This document shows positions 48,272 to 61,804 of a stretch of DNA of 64,000 nucleotides, one piece after another. This DNA is from Anaerolineae bacterium. GTDB lineage: Bacteria > Chloroflexota > Anaerolineae > Aggregatilineales > UBA2796. The notes below the pieces were generated by a model. It was given only the letters and a program-made list of their open reading frames with translations, did not search any database and was not told where the DNA came from. The translations under genes were made by a program, and so were the position numbers. Location of the stretch: NCBI GenBank assembly GCA_019637615.1, contig JAHBVJ010000003.1, positions 62,001 through 126,000 of the forward strand, read 5' to 3'. The first letter of the stretch is position 1; each line of letters opens with the position of its first letter.

Positions 48272-48964
48272 CTATACGTTAGGCTGTTTCTCAAAACGGT
48301 AGCCGACACGGTGCTCGGTCAGAATGTAGGTGGGATTCGCCGCATCCGGCTCGACCTTGCGGCGCAGTTGGCTGATGTAGACGCGCGGATAGTAAATATC
48401 ATCAATGTATTCTGGCCCCCACACCTGCTCCAGCAGTTCTTTTTGCGTCACCACGCGTCCGGAATTTTCCATTAGTACGATCAGCAGTTTGAACTCGGTC
48501 GGGGTCAGATGAATCTTCGCGCCAGCCACGTAGACATGCCGTCGCTGTAAATCGATCCGTAAATAGCCATCGTTATAGCCGAATTCTGATTCGCTGCTCG
48601 TCATCTGCGAGCGCCGCAGCAAGGCTTGAATCCGCGCCACGAATTCATTCAAGCGAATCGGCTTGATCAGGTATTCATCCGCGCCCGCGTTCAGACCGAG
48701 CACGATGTCTTCCTCGGTGATGGCGTTGGCGGACAGCATCATGATCGGTGTTTCCGCCACTTCGCGAATCCGCTGGCAGACGGTCAGCCCATCCATTTCC
48801 GGCATGACGATATCTAACACCACCAGATCGGGGCGTTCGGCATGAAACGTGCGCAAGCCTTCGATGCCGCTGCCGCCCAAAAAGACCGTGTATCCTTCTC
48901 GCCGCAATTTGCGACCTAGCGCATCGCGGATTGCCTGTTCATCATCAACTACCAGAATTTTCAT
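48272..48964 (-). CDS. OmpR/PhoB-type response regulator
   Basis: A 230-residue regulator: receiver domain at 1-118 (ILVVDDEQAIRDAL, phosphorylation Asp in LVVLDIVMPEMDG, Lys in YLIKPIR) and winged-helix DNA-binding domain at about 130-228 (LTPTEFKLLIVLMENSGRVVTQKELLEQVWG, then YYPRVYISQLRRKVE). No histidine kinase gene is adjacent, so its partner is an orphan kinase elsewhere. It stands alone between the APH-like gene and the divergent GNAT gene. Target genes are unknown. Confidence 0.96.
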   Translation of the reverse strand: MKILVVDDEQAIRDALGRKLRREGYTVFLGGSGIEGLRTFHAERPDLVVLDIVMPEMDGLTVCQRIREVAETPIMMLSANAITEEDIVLGLNAGADEYLIKPIRLNEFVARIQALLRRSQMTSSESEFGYNDGYLRIDLQRRHVYVAGAKIHLTPTEFKLLIVLMENSGRVVTQKELLEQVWGPEYIDDIYYPRVYISQLRRKVEPDAANPTYILTEHRVGYRFEKQPNV

Positions 48965-53069: not shown

Positions 53070-54911
53070 CTACGACGCGATCTTGCGTAGATAATCGACT
53101 ACGGTAGATACGCTGAAGGGTTTTTCCAGATACCCATCGAAGCCCATTTTGCGGATTTCGTCGGCGGTTTCGGTCGAGTAATGCGCGGTGGTCGCCACGA
53201 CGCTGCAATCGAGCTTCATTTGCCGAATTTTCTCGAACGCCTGATAGCCAGACATACCGGGCATGACGAGATCGATCACCACGATGTCGGGCACTTTGTG
53301 TTCCAAATAGCGTAAGGCGCTGGCGGCATCTTCCATGATGGTGAAATCCCACTCATAATAGGCCATCGTGGCTTCGAACACGCGCCGCCAACTGGGGTTA
53401 TCGTCCACGTACAGCACCGAGATCGGCTTCGTTTCCGTGGCGGGGAAATATTCACGGTTTGCCGCTGCTAACGCAAGCTGACGCAGCCAGCGCTCCAATG
53501 GCTTGAGGTAGTACAGCGACTTCCCGATCCACAAGGAGCGATAATCGGTGGCACCTGTACTGAGGTACGCTCCTGCCTGACGGATGGGTCTATCGATCAA
53601 GTCGGCACGGATTATGTTGGCCTTACGGAGTTTGTCCAGCGCCAAGACCGAGCAGCTCGTTTCCTGTACCGTCGATCCCTGCCAGCCCCAACTTCCGTTG
53701 GCTAATTGATGGTCAAGCAGACTGTAGCCCGCCCGCCGTGCCAGCGATTGTGCCTGTGGATGCGGAATATCGGCAAATAGGCGTCCGATCTCGCCAAGCG
53801 TATAGAATGGGGAGCTGTGCCACTTGCAGTGGGGCAAGTCTTCTTGTTTAGTCATCTCTTTGGCGATCCAGTCGAGGATGACCGGTGCATGAGGATTTTC
53901 GGGCCATGCCGCAACCGCATGGACATTCGTCGTCACCGATGGCGTACGTTCGTAGCGGAAGGTGATGTAATGATCTTCGTGGAACATGTCCTCGAAAGCG
54001 CTCATGATGCGCGCCCGTTCGGCGGTCGGCAAGTTCAGGCCGATGATCGCGCAGGCCGTCGTATCCATATCACCGGGGAAGGTCGAGTCACCCGCAACGG
54101 AGACTAATTTGCCCTGTTCCGCCAGCGTCGCCCGCAGCGCCGTGATCGACTCCGTATTGGGGATAGGCTCCCCATACGAGTGATCGATATACAGCAACAA
54201 CCATGACGTCACAAAATGCGGCACCTGATCGAGAATCCCAACTTCTTTGTTGAACGGATTCAGGCTTTCTACATAGTTGCGCAGTCTCGTGACCTGCTCC
54301 GACTCCAAGTGCCTATCCTTGCACGCAATCAGGCAGAAGGCTGAGGCGCTCGGTGAATTGCTGATCGAGCCATTTTCTACCTGAAAATTGTTGATCAGCC
54401 GCTCGATATCCAGATTCGGTAGAATATACGCCCATTCTGCGAAGAAGCCAGCGATGGACTTCAACGGATCGTAGAAGGCGTCATGCCCGACGATGGTACG
54501 CCACTTCTTCGAGTCATAGGTGATCGCCGTTTGCACTTTTTCGTGATGATCGACCGTCAGGCCAAGCCGCCAGAACGCGAAGGTATCGACCGCCGCGACC
54601 AGCCCGCCGAAATTGGCTGTCCAGTTCTCCGGGTAACAATCGGGGATTTCCTCTAATTCGTCGAGACTCTCGTACCCAAGCGTGGTGTTGCCACTCGCCA
54701 TCATCGCAACAGCCGCGCTATACGTACACAGATAGCGATCTTGCCATGAGAGCGTTTCGCCCCAACTTCCATCGGCATTCCGATGGTCGATTAACCAGCG
54801 TACGCACTCTTCGCGCTGGCTACCATCGAACAAGGCGACAACAGCGACATCATAGATAGACGACGATAGGTGATCTGCATCAGTGAGTAGGTCGAGTAGT
54901 GTGTTACCCAT
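53070..54911 (-). CDS. Class II diterpene cyclase fused to a C-terminal receiver domain
   Basis: A 613-residue fusion in one uninterrupted frame. Residues about 15-485 form an alpha/alpha-barrel terpene cyclase of class II: QW-type repeats (NADGSWGE at 45-52, ANGSWGWQ at 404-411), the general-acid motif DMDTT at 281-285 (Asp283 as proton donor, DxDTT variant of DxDD) and LWIGKSLYYLK at 460-470, the counterpart of WIGKxLYR in copalyl-diphosphate synthases. After a short linker, residues 497-613 are a CheY-like receiver: acidic pair in YVDDNP, phosphorylation Asp547 in VVIDLVMPGMSG, Thr in ATTAHY and Lys597 in LEKPFS. It follows three receivers and a histidine kinase in the same orientation. 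A direct signal-controlled cyclase is inferred. Confidence 0.9.
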   Translation of the reverse strand: MGNTLLDLLTDADHLSSSIYDVAVVALFDGSQREECVRWLIDHRNADGSWGETLSWQDRYLCTYSAAVAMMASGNTTLGYESLDELEEIPDCYPENWTANFGGLVAAVDTFAFWRLGLTVDHHEKVQTAITYDSKKWRTIVGHDAFYDPLKSIAGFFAEWAYILPNLDIERLINNFQVENGSISNSPSASAFCLIACKDRHLESEQVTRLRNYVESLNPFNKEVGILDQVPHFVTSWLLLYIDHSYGEPIPNTESITALRATLAEQGKLVSVAGDSTFPGDMDTTACAIIGLNLPTAERARIMSAFEDMFHEDHYITFRYERTPSVTTNVHAVAAWPENPHAPVILDWIAKEMTKQEDLPHCKWHSSPFYTLGEIGRLFADIPHPQAQSLARRAGYSLLDHQLANGSWGWQGSTVQETSCSVLALDKLRKANIIRADLIDRPIRQAGAYLSTGATDYRSLWIGKSLYYLKPLERWLRQLALAAANREYFPATETKPISVLYVDDNPSWRRVFEATMAYYEWDFTIMEDAASALRYLEHKVPDIVVIDLVMPGMSGYQAFEKIRQMKLDCSVVATTAHYSTETADEIRKMGFDGYLEKPFSVSTVVDYLRKIAS

Positions 54912-55037: not shown

Positions 55038-55415
55038 TTAATTAAATGATGCGATAACTTGATCGAGGTAGGTAACGAGATTCTCTGGCTGAATTGGTTT
55101 GAGTAAATAGCCATTGAAACCACGCTGCTCGAAGGTGGGCGTGCTGTCGAGCGTGTAATAGGCCGTCGTCGCCACCACCGGACAGTGTACTTGCGGTAGT
55201 TCCCGAATGCGCTTGAGAATTTTGTAACCGTCTTTGTTACCGGGCAACACGATGTCCAGCACGATGATGTCGGGCTTCGTGTGAGATAAAATGTCCACCA
55301 CTTCCGGCTCCGATTGTGCTACGACGAGATTCACATCGTGATAACTCAGGATGGTCTCGAATAGCTGCCGCGTGGAGGCGTCATCATCGACAAGTAAAAC
55401 TAGTTTTGAACTCAT
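55038..55415 (-). CDS. Stand-alone CheY-like receiver (C)
   Basis: A 125-residue receiver domain without output. Acidic pair in LLVDDDAS, phosphorylation Asp in IIVLDIVLPGNKDG, Thr in VVATTAYYT and Lys in YLLKPIQ. It resembles the receiver fused to the cyclase (both have VVATTA-Y and a GF-N/D-GYLxKP end), suggesting duplication. The start overlaps the stop of the preceding receiver gene by four bases (ATGA), so the two are translationally coupled. GAGGAAGG is upstream. A phosphate-relay or sink role is inferred. Confidence 0.94.
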   Translation of the reverse strand: MSSKLVLLVDDDASTRQLFETILSYHDVNLVVAQSEPEVVDILSHTKPDIIVLDIVLPGNKDGYKILKRIRELPQVHCPVVATTAYYTLDSTPTFEQRGFNGYLLKPIQPENLVTYLDQVIASFN

Positions 55416-55828
55416 ACCTTCCTCGTTTCCTTACAGGTAGCTAAGATGTCCGCGATCTGCTCGATAAATGTGCCAGCATCTACGGGCTTCATGATGTACC
55501 CGTTGAAACCAGCAGCTAAGATGCGTTCCCGGTCACCTTGCATCGCCAGCGCCGTCACTGCGATGACAGGTACTTGGCTGATGGCTGGCAGTGGGCGTCC
55601 ACGCACTTCCTTCAAGAGCTGCCAACCAGACATATGCGGCATTTGGATGTCGAACAAGCAAAAAGTCAAGTCGGTTAGCTTATCCAACAGTACGACGGCT
55701 TCCTCGCCCGAAGCGGCCTCAAATACTTCAGCGTCGTAAAAACGTAAGATGTGCGAGACGACCATGCGGTTGCTATCGTCATCTTCGACTACAAGGACTT
55801 TCCATGTGGCGGCTTCATCGTAGAGCAT
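55412..55828 (-). CDS. Stand-alone CheY-like receiver (B)
   Basis: A 138-residue receiver domain protein: acidic residues in VLVVEDDDSNRMV, phosphorylation Asp in TFCLFDIQMPHMSGWQLL, Thr in VIAVTALAM and Lys in GYIMKPVD. It follows the histidine kinase gene after 17 bases and overlaps the next receiver. The D-I-Q-M-P-x-M-S-G form is common in receivers of phosphorelay hybrid systems. GAGGA is placed seven bases before the ATG. No output domain is present. Confidence 0.95.
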   Translation of the reverse strand: MLYDEAATWKVLVVEDDDSNRMVVSHILRFYDAEVFEAASGEEAVVLLDKLTDLTFCLFDIQMPHMSGWQLLKEVRGRPLPAISQVPVIAVTALAMQGDRERILAAGFNGYIMKPVDAGTFIEQIADILATCKETRKV

Positions 55829-55845: not shown

Positions 55846-57201
55846 TTAGGCGGCTTCAGGTTGTCTGGGAAGATGGATTATAAAGGTGGTTCCAGAGCCT
55901 ACTACCGATTCGGCTTTTATCGTGCCGTGATGCAGTTCAACATAACTCTTGGCAATCGCCAATCCTAAGCCGGTGCCTTCCCGTGCGCGGGTATCAGTGC
56001 TATCCGCTTGATAGAAGGGTTCAAAAACGTGTTTCAGCGCGTCTTCTTTGATGCCGATGCCCGTATCTTTCACGGTTAACTGCCATTTATCCATGCCGAG
56101 CGGGCCGATGTCCACGCTCACTTTGCCATGATCGGTGAATTTGATGGCGTTGCCGACGAGATTTTTAACCACCTGTTTGATTTGCGGCGCGTCACATTGC
56201 ACTTGCGCGGGCGTATTGGGATCAAAGGTGAGTTCGAGATCGATCTCCTTGTTGATGGCGAGGCTGCGCAGGCTGTTAATGGTGCCGATGATGAACGACT
56301 CGTCACACGGGTTGACCGAAGCGAGTGTCGCTTGCATACGCCCGGACGAAATACGCGTTAGGTCGAGGATGCCGTTAATCAGCGTCAACAGTGCCTCGGC
56401 GTTATAACGGATGTCTTTGATCATCTTCTTCTGGGTGGCGGACAGTTCGCGGGCTTCTTCTTTGGGCTTAATCATGCCCATTTCGAGGATGCCGAGGAAG
56501 CCGATGATGGCCCCTAGCGGCGTCCGCAACTCGTGCGACATCGTAGACAGGAAGCTGGATTTAGCGGCGTTGGCGCGTTCGGCTTCTTGCGTCTTCAGTT
56601 CAGCGATCTTTAACGCTTGTTCCGTTTGACGGCGCGAGGCTTCCGCATCCAGCAGTTTGTCGTCATATTCTTTGCGCAGGTTGTACAGCAAAATGGCGAG
56701 CGTCCCCAAGGTGATCAAGCTGTTCGAGATCAGCTCAGACCCATTGGTAATGCTGCTGTGAAGCGAGACAATGGCGACGATGAGCGTGGCAGAAACGGCG
56801 GCAAAGGCATAAATCGCCCGACGATCCATAACTAAGGCGACGACCACCAGACTCATAATATAGTTGGTCAGGAAGGTGTCGGAAATCGCAGAATCAGCCG
56901 CCATCGTGAAGGTGGAAAAGAACACAAACATCGAGACGAGCAAATAACCCGCCTGCGTGATCTTGCCCCGACTGACGGCAATGCCAGAAAGCACAAGCAA
57001 CACACCGGCGACCACTTCCGCCGTAGGATAGGAAATCAGCGTCCACTCTGATTTAAAGACCACGATCGAGGTGATGAAGGAGAGAATGATGAGGACCAAG
57101 GTCAATGGCAAGATGATACGGATGGTTTTCTCACGGAACTTCAGATTCGGGTCTGTCGTCCGTGGCGCTAACCATTGCTGTGCCGCAGGAAAAGTAATCA
57201 T
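55846..57201 (-). CDS. Membrane sensor histidine kinase
   Basis: A 451-residue kinase. About six membrane segments span residues 28-172 (no large periplasmic domain, so the signal is in or near the membrane). A coiled coil (175-215) leads to HisKA with His223 in FLSTMSHELRTPLGAIIGF and the HATPase domain (N-box VKNLVGNAIKFTD, G1 VKDTGIGIK, G2 GTGLGLAIAKSYVELH). It has no receiver of its own, but receiver genes flank it on both sides with gaps of 11 and 17 bases. It is the probable phosphate donor for the cyclase-receiver protein. Confidence 0.95.
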   Translation of the reverse strand: MITFPAAQQWLAPRTTDPNLKFREKTIRIILPLTLVLIILSFITSIVVFKSEWTLISYPTAEVVAGVLLVLSGIAVSRGKITQAGYLLVSMFVFFSTFTMAADSAISDTFLTNYIMSLVVVALVMDRRAIYAFAAVSATLIVAIVSLHSSITNGSELISNSLITLGTLAILLYNLRKEYDDKLLDAEASRRQTEQALKIAELKTQEAERANAAKSSFLSTMSHELRTPLGAIIGFLGILEMGMIKPKEEARELSATQKKMIKDIRYNAEALLTLINGILDLTRISSGRMQATLASVNPCDESFIIGTINSLRSLAINKEIDLELTFDPNTPAQVQCDAPQIKQVVKNLVGNAIKFTDHGKVSVDIGPLGMDKWQLTVKDTGIGIKEDALKHVFEPFYQADSTDTRAREGTGLGLAIAKSYVELHHGTIKAESVVGSGTTFIIHLPRQPEAA

Positions 57202-57212
57202 CGTTCTACACC

Positions 57213-57593
57213 TCAGTGAATAGAAACAGGGCGCGTCGTTTTGAGTAAACGTTGAGCGAACAGCGCCAAATCCTCAACGTCAAGTGGTTTCAACATCACA
57301 AAATCGGCAAGTTCTTCGATCTCACTACTATTCATGTGTGAATTGGCAGTCACCACCACGATATACATTTGCTCGTAGCTACCCATCTGGCGGATTACCT
57401 TAAGTACAGTGGCACCACTCATGGTTGGCATATTTAAGTCGAGGAACATAATGTGAAAAGTTTGCTCGCGGAGTCGCGCCAGTGCTTCGGCCCCGTTGCA
57501 AGCCACTTCCACGTCAAAGCCAGCATATTCAAGCGCCATACGGATGATCGTTTGGAAGGCGGGGGTATCCTCTACGACGAGTGCTCGAGTCAT
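57213..57593 (-). CDS. Stand-alone CheY-like receiver (A)
   Basis: A 126-residue receiver and the first gene of the signalling operon. Acidic pair in LVVEDTPAFQT (Glu-Asp), phosphorylation Asp in IMFLDLNMPTMSGATVL, Thr in VVVTANSH and Lys in FVMLKPLD. No output domain is present. The gap to the kinase gene is 11 bases. AAGGCAG stands upstream of the ATG. It might receive phosphate from the kinase or carry a signal in from another kinase. Confidence 0.94.
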   Translation of the reverse strand: MTRALVVEDTPAFQTIIRMALEYAGFDVEVACNGAEALARLREQTFHIMFLDLNMPTMSGATVLKVIRQMGSYEQMYIVVVTANSHMNSSEIEELADFVMLKPLDVEDLALFAQRLLKTTRPVSIH

Positions 57594-58045
57594 CTGCTTC
57601 TGCCTTTATCAAAGAGCCGTGCGGATTGAATTTTCATACGTCCTCAAGGCTCATCGCATACGCTCTGTATCACCTCAAAGACGCGGTCGTTCCATCTGCG
57701 TGCTGCTCATCAAGCCCTATCCCAAGGGATAGATAATGATGGCTTCAAAATCATGTGTTATCGTATTCTGTAGTATTGTGTTCGTTGTAGTGTTGCGATG
57801 CAGAATTTATGCTAAATTAAGAATATCATCATCGTGTTCAGCAGAACGATCCAACCTATAACAAGTCCATCACGTTTCTTGATCAATCGGGGTTGATGGC
57901 GCAATTATGCTGGCAAATCGCCCTCGATAACATTCATAATGCGGGCGACTAATAATCGTGAACATTTTATCAGACACTATCGTAATAGGTTAACACACCA
58001 TACGATAAATTAATGTCTCGTGAACAGCGTATAGGAGAAATGCCC
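57594..58045. other. Divergent regulatory region of the diterpenoid locus
   Basis: About 450 bases without a gene between the signalling operon and the diterpene synthase-like gene. The perfect palindrome at 57717 and AT-rich stretches around 57770-57830 are the only features I see; both promoters should lie here. Confidence 0.55.
57717..57732. promoter_or_regulatory. Perfect 16-bp palindrome
   Basis: CTATCCCAAGGGATAG-type dyad: CTATCCC (57717-57723), AA, GGGATAG (57726-57732). It lies 124 bases upstream of the first receiver gene, a fitting place for an operator of the divergent locus. Confidence 0.5.
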
Positions 58046-58960
58046 ATGAGCGTTGTCGTTCCCCCTCTACCAGAATGGTTAGCGATGCCACGTTCCGAAC
58101 TAGCCGAGTATGTAGCAAAGCAGCCTCTCGCTGTTTTGTTTTCCGTCGATGGTACGCGGCGTCACTACCTGATTCAAACTGGCAAGGATGAGATCACGGA
58201 CTTTGCTGAATTTGCCGAGCATGGCGCGGAAAGCTATGTGCGTGCTTATGACGTGCTGTTCGGGCTAGGCGTAGAGACGGTCATGATACCGCTGCTGTAT
58301 CCACCGAATTTCGTGCGGCGCGACAACTATCTGACGCAATCGCTCAAGATGTGTCGGCAGCTCCTCGCCACCGCGCCATTCACTGACCTGTATCAACGCT
58401 GGCAACTCAAAGCGCGCCTCTATGGGGACTATGATGTTGCGCCCAACGCAGCGAGCAGTCACCAAGAAATTGCTGAGTTGGCGACGGTGCTCACGAACCT
58501 CACCCCGACCGGAGAGCGGAAACTACTGCTTGGCTTCAACGCTGGCTCATTTTCGGAAGAAATGATTGCACGCTCTGTCGCGTTGTATCAGTCACTAGGC
58601 CGTGCGCCAAGCGAGGCCGAATTGATGACGGCGTGTTTCCCCGACGGCCCTACGCAAGTGCATATCTGGCTCGGCGCGGGTTGGCTGCGACTCGGCATTA
58701 CCCTGCCGACGCTGCTCGATGGCGGCAGGACGGATGTTTATGGCCTTTCTCACCTCGCGCTGGATCTTCAGGAAGGCGAGTTACGCCGCATTTTGTACGA
58801 TCACCTCTTCCGTCGCTGGGCTGGCCCCGAAGATGACGTAAGCTATACCCCCGATGACCTCCGCGAACTGGGCGATTTCTACCGTGAACACAAGGATTGT
58901 GTGGTAGGGCTTGGGACGTGCGTCGGGCCGGGGCTGTGGTATCCCGATCACGCACATTAG
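58046..58960 (+). CDS. Diterpene synthase-like, cis-prenyltransferase fold (Rv3378c type)
   Basis: A 304-residue protein starting at ATG 58046, after AGGAGA. The N-terminal LAVLFSVDGTRRHYL (Asp35) corresponds to the MDGNRRW motif of undecaprenyl-diphosphate synthases, in the modified DGTRR form of tuberculosinol/kolavelool synthases. Those enzymes share the cis-prenyltransferase fold but remove diphosphate from a bicyclic class II product. GLGVETVMIPLLYPPNF and LARLYGDY-type KARLYGDYDV keep the UPPS-like layout. With the class II cyclase 3 kb away on the other strand it completes a two-step diterpene pathway. Product not predictable. Confidence 0.82.
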   Translation: MSVVVPPLPEWLAMPRSELAEYVAKQPLAVLFSVDGTRRHYLIQTGKDEITDFAEFAEHGAESYVRAYDVLFGLGVETVMIPLLYPPNFVRRDNYLTQSLKMCRQLLATAPFTDLYQRWQLKARLYGDYDVAPNAASSHQEIAELATVLTNLTPTGERKLLLGFNAGSFSEEMIARSVALYQSLGRAPSEAELMTACFPDGPTQVHIWLGAGWLRLGITLPTLLDGGRTDVYGLSHLALDLQEGELRRILYDHLFRRWAGPEDDVSYTPDDLRELGDFYREHKDCVVGLGTCVGPGLWYPDHAH

Positions 58961-60026: not shown

Positions 60027-61022
60027 CTAGTTGGGCATCTGGGGCAGCGCGGCGCAGTTGCCCGTACCTGCCACTACATCCGAGCGCACAAAGCCGCCGC
60101 CCTTGATCAGATACCATGTGAAACCGTCGTTATCGCCCAGTTGTCCCGTCACCGCCATCGATTCGCCCGGTTTCAACTTGCCGACAATCTCAAAGCTGAT
60201 GCCAGCCCCGCTGCGGATGTTGACGTTGTAATTGCCTCCCGGCGCGACGGCACAGTCGCCGCTGCCTGTGACATTACTGGCCTGATTCAGCGTGGGATCG
60301 GTGAACGGTTTGATCGGCAGCACCCCGACATCCCCGATCAGGTCTTGGATCGCTTCCGCGCTGGGGAATTTGCGTGGCCCGCTCCTTCCCTCGCCGCCTT
60401 CGAGGAACGGTTGCAAGATCGGCGTCGCTTCTGACACATCGTAGATCAACGCCTGACCGAGCGACACATGGTTCGGGTTGCGCCCGCCGATCTGTCGGAT
60501 CAGCGCCAAATGCGCTTGCTCCACGACGGCGATCTGCGCTGCCGAGGCCGCCAGCAAGGAATTACCGAGTTGTGCGATGCGCCGCACCGCCGCCAGATAA
60601 GCCGCCACGAAGGCCGCTTCTGCCTGTTCCGTGATCTCCGAAAATTGCGCTCTGTCGGTGTAAATGTTGTCTGGAAAATAAAATTCTGTCGCCAACGCCG
60701 CCGCACCGTTCGCGTTCAGATATTCAAGATGGTGCAGTTCCGCATCGATGGCAGATTTCAGGATGTTGGTTTCGGCGGGCGTCAGGGCGATATTACTGTC
60801 CGTCAGGACGTTGTAATAATGCGTACAAGCCAGCGTTTCCGCCGTCGCCGCCAGATTCAAGATCGTTTGCGCATCGTCACCATCTTGCCCAAAGACACGT
60901 GTGTAGCCAAATAATTGATTGAAACTCACGAGGGAAGCGCCCAGCGTGGCGGCGATGGCTCCGCCCTTCAACACAGTCCGCCGCGAGATGCCATTCTCAG
61001 TTGGCATGGTCATTTTCTCCAT
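60027..61022 (-). CDS. Tat-exported ferritin-like protein with C-terminal SH3 domain
   Basis: A 331-residue protein with a Tat signal (SRRTVLKGGAIAATLGASLVSF). Residues about 50-215 form a ferritin-like four-helix domain of the Ferritin_2/DUF4439 kind (LNLAATAETLACTHYYNVL, AELHHLEYLNANG, EQAEAAFVAAYLAAVRRIA, VVEQAHLALIRQIGG), with Glu and His residues suited to a di-metal site. A bacterial SH3 domain (about 260-325: YNVNIRSGAGISFEIVGKL, GGFVRSDVV) is attached, which its paralogue lacks. The function is unknown; desiccation-related relatives exist. It lies 56 bases downstream of that paralogue's stop, with a terminator between. Confidence 0.86.
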   Translation of the reverse strand: MEKMTMPTENGISRRTVLKGGAIAATLGASLVSFNQLFGYTRVFGQDGDDAQTILNLAATAETLACTHYYNVLTDSNIALTPAETNILKSAIDAELHHLEYLNANGAAALATEFYFPDNIYTDRAQFSEITEQAEAAFVAAYLAAVRRIAQLGNSLLAASAAQIAVVEQAHLALIRQIGGRNPNHVSLGQALIYDVSEATPILQPFLEGGEGRSGPRKFPSAEAIQDLIGDVGVLPIKPFTDPTLNQASNVTGSGDCAVAPGGNYNVNIRSGAGISFEIVGKLKPGESMAVTGQLGDNDGFTWYLIKGGGFVRSDVVAGTGNCAALPQMPN

Positions 61023-61078: not shown

Positions 61079-61804
61079 CTACTTGTTGAACAGGGTCGGG
61101 TCGGTGAACGGCTTGACCGCCATCACGCCATCGGAGCCGATGACCTTGCGGATTTCGTCTGCGCCGGGGAACTTACGTGGCCCGGCGAAATCAGCGCCGC
61201 CTTCAAGGAAGCCTTGCAGCACCGGCTTGACGTCTGATGTATTCGCGAATAAGGCTTGCCCCAACGACACATGATTCGGCACGCGCCCGCCGATCTGCCG
61301 GATCAGCGCCAAGTGTACCTGCTCGGTCGCGGCAACCTGCGCCGCCGTCGCCGCCAACAGCGGATTGCCCAACTGCGCGATGCGTCGAACCGCCGCTAGA
61401 TAAGCCGAGACGAACGATGTTTCCGCCATTTCGGTGATCTCCGAAAATTGGGCGCGGTCAGTGTACACATTGCGCGGAAAATAGAATTCGCTGAGGAGGC
61501 TGGTCGCCGCGTTCGCATTCAAATACTCAAGATGCTGAAGTTCGGTATCCAGCGCCGATTTCAAAATAGCGACTTCGGCGGGCACCAGTGCGATGTTGCT
61601 ATCCGTCAGGACGTTGTAATAGTGCGTGCAGGCCAGCGTTTCCGCCGTCGCCGCGAGGTTGAGGATTACTTCGAGCGTATCGGCATCCTGCGCAAAGACA
61701 CGTTCGAAGCCAAAGAGCTGACTAAAGCTAAAGGTAGCGGCTCCGGCAACAACGGCTGAGTTTCTTAGAAAATGGCGTCGGGAAATAGAATTGCTCGTGG
61801 ACAT
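61079..61804 (-). CDS. Tat-exported ferritin-like protein (paralogue)
   Basis: A 241-residue paralogue of the protein at 60,027. The Tat signal is SRRHFLRNSAVVAGAATFSF. The ferritin-like domain is nearly the same in pattern (LNLAATAETLACTHYYNVL, LQHLEYLNAN, SFVSAYLAAVRRIAQL, TEQVHLALIRQIGGR), ending in the shared VKPFTDPTLF. It lacks the SH3 tail. The two genes are a tandem duplication. A terminator between them suggests separate or attenuated expression. Substrate unknown, an oxidative role of the di-metal domain is possible. Confidence 0.88.
   Translation of the reverse strand: MSTSNSISRRHFLRNSAVVAGAATFSFSQLFGFERVFAQDADTLEVILNLAATAETLACTHYYNVLTDSNIALVPAEVAILKSALDTELQHLEYLNANAATSLLSEFYFPRNVYTDRAQFSEITEMAETSFVSAYLAAVRRIAQLGNPLLAATAAQVAATEQVHLALIRQIGGRVPNHVSLGQALFANTSDVKPVLQGFLEGGADFAGPRKFPGADEIRKVIGSDGVMAVKPFTDPTLFNK

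Follow-up and report, generated by a model that had tools for sequence, protein, structure and literature searches.

Among described diterpene pathways, the Rv3377c/Rv3378c pair of Mycobacterium tuberculosis is one of the closest to the locus reported here. The solved Rv3377c chain comprises 501 residues and carries no receiver, unlike the fusion found in our window, a 64,000-nucleotide stretch of an Anaerolineae bacterium contig. Excerpts of PMC9814783 propose a DxxxxE motif as metal-binding in Tpn2, PtmT2 and Rv3377c; the window-type cyclase lacks the Glu of this motif. The same excerpts report that Haur_2145 makes (+)-kolavenyl diphosphate, and this enzyme of Herpetosiphon aurantiacus has been linked to O-methylkolavelool (PMC5704754, excerpts), in a paper whose available text returned no kinase or regulation terms in a term search. 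The Haur_2145 cyclase is unfused and belongs to the canonical clade, which sets it apart from the window fusion. Diterpene synthases of another type have been reported from Anaerolineae (PMC12363642); two-component and gene cluster terms are absent from the available portion of that paper.

Receivers are found on metabolic enzymes in an archaeal two-component census (PMC5847659, excerpts), which also includes HTH-REC and other output-first domain orders. Its enzymatic-output response regulators, such as KaiC-REC and BcsA-like glycosyltransferase-REC, likewise carry a receiver on a metabolic enzyme and show a narrow phyletic spread; the window fusion differs in having a terpene cyclase as output. 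In its main text, as available, the census never uses the word 'terpene'. Literature searches, which left aside preprints and covered few subscription papers, returned no terpene cyclase as a receiver output and no description of such a neighbourhood. Within the scope of these searches, the terpene cyclase as output domain is new and unexpected; receivers joined to metabolic enzymes were already known.

The fusion gene and its apparent operon

The initial annotation described a complete class II diterpene cyclase joined in one gene to a complete receiver, and domain, alignment and model evidence bear this out (Table 1). The beta-gamma double-barrel fold, a feature of bacterial class II diterpene cyclases, spans the whole cyclase part. 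The DMDTT motif containing D283 is invariant in all 12 aligned sequences and pairs with DCDTT of 6vpt. The fused receiver has the full PF00072 residue set (D503, D504, D547, T575 and K597), and across six fused receivers these places hold Asp (4) or Glu (2), Asp (6), Asp (6), Thr (6) and Lys (6). Enzyme and receiver occupy a single chain, as in enzymatic-output response regulators. The C-terminal position of the receiver, first described as out of its usual place, is indeed unusual, but the output-first orders in excerpts of the PMC5847659 census mean that it is not unique.

At the pocket mouth, window-type cyclases have no DxxxxE motif; Gly stands at the aligned place, within an invariant FGG. 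This motif is an accessory rather than a family-defining feature, with a metal role proposed for three enzymes. The Asp preceding KWH is replaced by Cys in the alignment of window-type cyclases, and a paralogous cyclase of the same genome (locus L009) has Pro at the place of the DxxxxE Glu, as judged by eye. Because this Glu is missing and Cys stands for the Asp before KWH, catalysis or substrate binding may differ in the window-type cyclase, or another substrate may be used.

Structure prediction, proposed as a check when the gene was first described, gave a fold with cyclase and receiver in one chain (pTM 0.78). Only about 12 residues lie between the last cyclase helix (470-485) and the first receiver strand (498). 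With this pTM and a linker (488-494) below pLDDT 50, the modelled arrangement of cyclase and receiver relative to each other may not be reliable.

Upstream of the fusion and on its strand lie REC3, the kinase, REC2 and REC1, in that order, with successive gaps of 11, 17, -4 and 126 bases from REC3 to the fusion. The product of the divergent gene aligns with 3wqn over nearly its full length (residues 20-311), including the DGTRR stretch, which is presumably important in Rv3378c-type diterpene synthases. The whole gene set, Rv3378c-like synthase included, is collinear with the window in genome G006, and likewise in G002, where one receiver was not called. A second locus of the window genome, L009, combines a canonical cyclase that is not fused with a kinase, an Rv3378c-like gene and three receivers. 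A regulator of the OmpR type (48272-48964), which includes a DNA-binding domain, lies 4 kb past the fusion, with three genes on the other strand between the two. The window also contains a tandem pair of ferritin-like genes (PF13668), apparently duplicates, at 60027-61022 and 61079-61804 (-); the first additionally has a bacterial SH3 domain and the second a weak Tat-signal match.

Table 1. Features of the fusion gene and its neighbours, in window coordinates
Feature	Position	Strand	Remarks
Class II diterpene cyclase with C-terminal receiver, fusion gene	53070..54911	-	613 aa
Cyclase part of fusion, residues 1-490	53442..54911	-	
Asp283 codon, central Asp of DMDTT, predicted proton donor	54063..54065	-	12-sequence alignment and 6vpt alignment
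Receiver domain of fusion, residues 497-613 plus stop	53070..53423	-	
Asp547 codon, predicted phospho-acceptor	53271..53273	-	Asp in 6/6 fused receivers
Stand-alone receiver REC1, same lineage as fused receiver	55038..55415	-	
Stand-alone receiver REC2, second lineage	55412..55828	-	4-base overlap with next gene
Sensor histidine kinase, 451 aa	55846..57201	-	Six hydrophobic stretches, HisKA, HATPase_c
Predicted membrane sensor part of kinase	56623..57201	-	No Pfam family above cut-off
Stand-alone receiver REC3, third lineage	57213..57593	-	Receiver of second fusion groups here, more deeply
Rv3378c-like diterpene synthase, 315 aa, divergent	58013..58960	+	PDB 3wqn, E 1e-25

Recurrence of the fusion and lineages of its receivers

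About 5.8 billion proteins were searched with the cyclase part, and scoring was confined to the 7999 candidates that had the most words in common with it. Twenty-two of these matched, and 5 of the 22 carry PF00072: a 98% copy (P0001) and four proteins at 52-59% identity, named 'halimadienyl-diphosphate synthase' (P0002 and P0003) or 'response regulator' (P0005 and P0006) in the database. The receiver fusion is therefore found in the window plus four clearly distinct proteins. Window-type cyclases occur in 3 of the 154 genomes of the window's order (E<=1e-25), all as open frames of 620-645 aa, and Pfam confirmed the receiver in the G002 and G006 proteins. The same domain pair, which the initial annotation suggested might be sought elsewhere in Chloroflexota, is thus present both in separate proteins at 52-59% identity and in these two genomes. 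The annotation had also allowed for a frame error, with the fusion absent from relatives; its presence in distinct proteins speaks for a real fusion and rules out a sequencing or frame error as its origin.

Fused window-type cyclases form a clade with support of 1.0 in a FastTree analysis of 105 cyclases. P0004 (498 aa, on a 2.5-kb contig) is unfused yet placed inside this clade; it could reflect fusion loss, or a frame break exactly where the receiver would begin. P0008 (54% identity) has no receiver, but at 340 aa it is shorter than the cyclase and is a fragment. For P0007 and P0009-P0013, more distant unfused relatives at 36-44% identity, the tree gives positions outside the clade of fused proteins. 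Ten of 12 named loci are assigned to Anaerolinea, Anaerolineae, Anaerolineales or Chloroflexi, the other two to Allokutzneria and a gammaproteobacterial MAG. The unfused relative of the window-type cyclase in the actinobacterial Allokutzneria (L054) adjoins a polyprenyl synthase, a class I terpene synthase and a P450, neighbours that support a diterpene role for the window-type cyclase.

A canonical DCDD cyclase in genome G012 (locus L047, 8752-10740) also terminates in a receiver. This protein and its 99% identical database counterpart P0026, named 'response regulator [Anaerolineae bacterium]', lie far from the window clade in the same tree, among unfused enzymes of the canonical clade, and the relatives that come next in the database (from P0027, 61%) have no fusion. 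Its model is as confident as that of the window fusion (mean pLDDT 92.6, pTM 0.82). On the sequence evidence, cyclase-receiver fusion arose twice independently. Such fusion looks rare, since P0026 is the only PF00072 carrier among the 120 of 1344 matches listed. Other long cyclase frames were not counted as receiver fusions: by Pfam, L051 (1322-3403) combines the cyclase with a Y1 (IS200-like) transposase in one frame, L050 (7086-9299) runs by eye into a class I terpene synthase-like part, and four profiles gave no second domain in L106.

The origin of the fused receivers was examined in a tree of 110 receivers from cyclase loci. Window-type fused receivers group with REC1 (support 0.899 with 20 members, 0.981 with 23 members), the free receiver encoded after the cyclase and the kinase where a cluster has no fusion, and apart from REC2, the next receiver. 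Mean identity of the window fused receiver is 0.41 to 11 REC1 sequences versus 0.31 to 10 REC2 sequences. Elsewhere in the window genome, it is matched best (46%) by the receiver that lies two genes past the L009 cyclase. When it was used as a query against 20 genomes picked for having cyclase clusters, 17 of them without the fusion, the best match was a cyclase-cluster receiver in 16 of these 17, G118 giving none at 1e-15.

The L047 receiver falls among the receivers resident with its own cyclase subfamily (support 1.0, 15 members), and a deeper node (support 0.892) joins it to the REC3 lineage. As a query in 15 other genomes, it was matched best by a cluster receiver in 12; G273, G484 and G407 each gave a better match elsewhere. 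Capture of one receiver twice was rejected, the window type belonging to the REC1 lineage and L047 grouping with that of REC3. As grouped here, the receiver in each fusion is of the sort that sits beside that type of cyclase. A kinase beside an unfused cyclase (L096:7153-9249, minus strand) has a C-terminal receiver (Pfam, 573-678) of the L047 group; receivers of this group are thus met free, kinase-joined and cyclase-joined, which ties kinase, receiver and cyclase together. Receivers of the REC3 lineage keep to the vicinity of the clusters; where there is no fusion, they are often encoded on the opposite strand (positions +5 to +7).

Kinases and receivers around diterpene cyclases

Relatives of the canonical cyclase are carried by 43 of the order's 154 genomes and by 43 genomes in a sample of 400 from the phylum, the window genome being in both sets. 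Neighbourhoods were analysed by script, with profiles made from the genes of the window and of L009 and then widened. The script covered 95 loci with 94 cyclase genes, the cyclase frame of L079 having been lost, apparently to a longer antisense frame. Counts are given for 70 cyclases; 24 of the 94 were left out for having less than 2.5 kb on a side, and G352:C175 was not included. Gene calls were mechanical and missed some receivers, such as one in L034, where an antisense frame was retained.

A same-strand kinase lies within 3 genes and 5 kb of the cyclase in 51 of the 70 loci, a receiver (fused ones included) is near it in 42, and an Rv3378c-like gene lies within 5 genes in 48. Control genes of at least 200 aa, neither kinase nor receiver, were taken from 20 stretches of 20 kb at hand-picked positions, flanks of the same loci being too few (0/7), and were scored by the same 3-gene rule without the 5-kb limit. 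Of these 158 control genes, 5 had a kinase in range and 14 a receiver. The Fisher p (5e-29) ignores relatedness, so the counts of genera (28/36) and families (11/14) with the kinase are safer. The 19 loci without a close kinase include all of families f32 (0/4), f35 (0/5) and f68 (0/1). Cyclase and kinase genes frequently overlap or almost touch.

Stand-alone receivers within 4 genes of a cyclase are mostly short: 61 of 67 have 175 aa or fewer, a length that would leave no space for an output domain. The six longer ones include the OmpR-type regulator of the window. In two loci the Rv3378c-like gene is followed by a HAD-type hydrolase of about 220 aa, possibly a pathway phosphatase (PF00702; L037:12115-12783 and L066:6295-6951); genes of similar size occupy this place in several other loci. 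The wider picture points to a widespread neighbourhood of diterpene and two-component genes, of which the fusion would be one derived state. The initial annotation had seen an odd single gene.

Six loci of family f42 (L125, L126, L128, L129, L131 and L132) share one gene order: hybrid kinase, free receiver, class II cyclase, Rv3378c-like gene, a 285-311 aa gene and another free receiver. Pfam identifies the 285-311 aa gene as a methyltransferase in L126, the sole one tested. We take cyclase, Rv3378c-like gene and methyltransferase to be the gene make-up of the O-methylkolavelool cluster, which these loci resemble, with a kinase alongside. From their gene content, we infer that they belong to Herpetosiphon.

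The first 193 residues of the window kinase contain six hydrophobic stretches (Kyte-Doolittle) and gave no Pfam family above cut-off. A search with this sensor part across the 154 genomes of the order returned 23 matches at E<=1e-8. They fall in 22 genomes, each of which is one of the 43 with a cyclase; 22 of the 23 lie within about 2 kb of a cyclase, and the other (G069:C48) is at a contig edge. This near-exclusivity is not a by-product of few kinases, as the window genome alone has 135 HisKA matches. Five weaker matches (E 7.8e-8 to 8.9e-7; G048 twice, G106, G114 and G102) are not beside a listed cyclase, and three of the genomes concerned (G048, G106 and G102) are outside the cyclase-bearing set; a further weak match (G111:C51, E 2.3e-5) is likewise away from the cluster. 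The other 21 cyclase-bearing genomes of the order gave no sensor match at E<=1e-8. Since the sensor was matched in just 22 of 43, the other cyclase clusters evidently use diverged or different sensors.

A proposed phosphorylation path and its rivals

We put at roughly 60% the probability that the adjacent kinase phosphorylates Asp547 and so switches the cyclase on or off without transcription. The six hydrophobic stretches of the kinase would detect a signal at the membrane, phosphate would pass from the kinase to the resident receiver, and the receiver would alter cyclase activity, by contact when free and by covalent joining in the fusion. The cyclase would cyclise geranylgeranyl diphosphate via Asp283, and the Rv3378c-like enzyme would convert the cyclic diphosphate to a diterpene alcohol or similar product. 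In unfused clusters, this role would fall to the free receiver encoded two genes beyond the cyclase, acting through binding; fusion would make the last contact of the path permanent.

Direct phospho-switching is well motivated by a sensor nearly confined to cyclase loci, resident receivers with intact phospho-sites, two independent fusions and mostly short receivers, and a phosphorylation path from kinase through receiver to cyclase would be the simplest account. The broader proposal is a dedicated and widespread Chloroflexota pathway, in which a membrane-sensor kinase acts on the cyclase via a free or fused receiver and a lipid-like molecule is made within seconds, with no gene switched. We hold this more tentatively, at a little under even odds. 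A separate transcriptional output through the OmpR-type regulator is also possible, because that regulator lies in the window and six longer receivers lie near cyclases.

The receiver might instead be a docking or assembly part that tethers the cyclase to the kinase at the membrane, or brings cyclases together in pairs, for handover of the intermediate to the Rv3378c-like enzyme; phosphorylation would then shift location or assembly, not turnover. Such a role would suit the frequent dimerisation of receivers, the short spacer between cyclase helix and receiver strand in the model, and the many loci that keep kinase, receiver, cyclase and Rv3378c-like genes together. Plain docking would have no need of the phospho-site residues, however, and all six fused receivers retain them, which makes this reading unlikely. 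We consider product-sensing feedback less probable again, with the membrane part of the kinase sensing the diterpenoid or a precursor and the fused receiver serving as a brake or phosphate sink. A lipid sensor of the pathway's own product would be expected to be nearly confined to cyclase loci, as the strong sensor matches are, and the operon has several receivers for one kinase, but the candidate for a separate target, the OmpR-type regulator, is unlinked.

Very improbable, in our judgement, is a neutral read-through in which stop-codon loss merged neighbouring genes with no functional effect. The fusion has outlasted cyclase divergence to 52-59% identity with the key residues of its receiver retained, and it appears to have arisen twice. 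These observations stand against the ease with which genes that overlap or nearly touch, as cyclase and kinase genes often do, could merge, the free receiver of the same lineage (REC1) still found beside the fusion, and the possible loss of the fusion in P0004.

Control of terpene pathways is commonly described in terms of transcription and the supply of precursors. If the phosphorylation path from kinase to receiver to cyclase is true, bacteria would gate terpene cyclisation by phosphorylation, and the kinase-linked neighbourhood is present in 11 of the 14 Chloroflexota families with a usable locus. Should the switch work, the fusion would be a ready-made phosphorylation-controlled cyclase for synthetic biology. 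The sensor part of the kinase is a candidate new membrane sensor domain, and the system offers a route to ask what these diterpenoids do.
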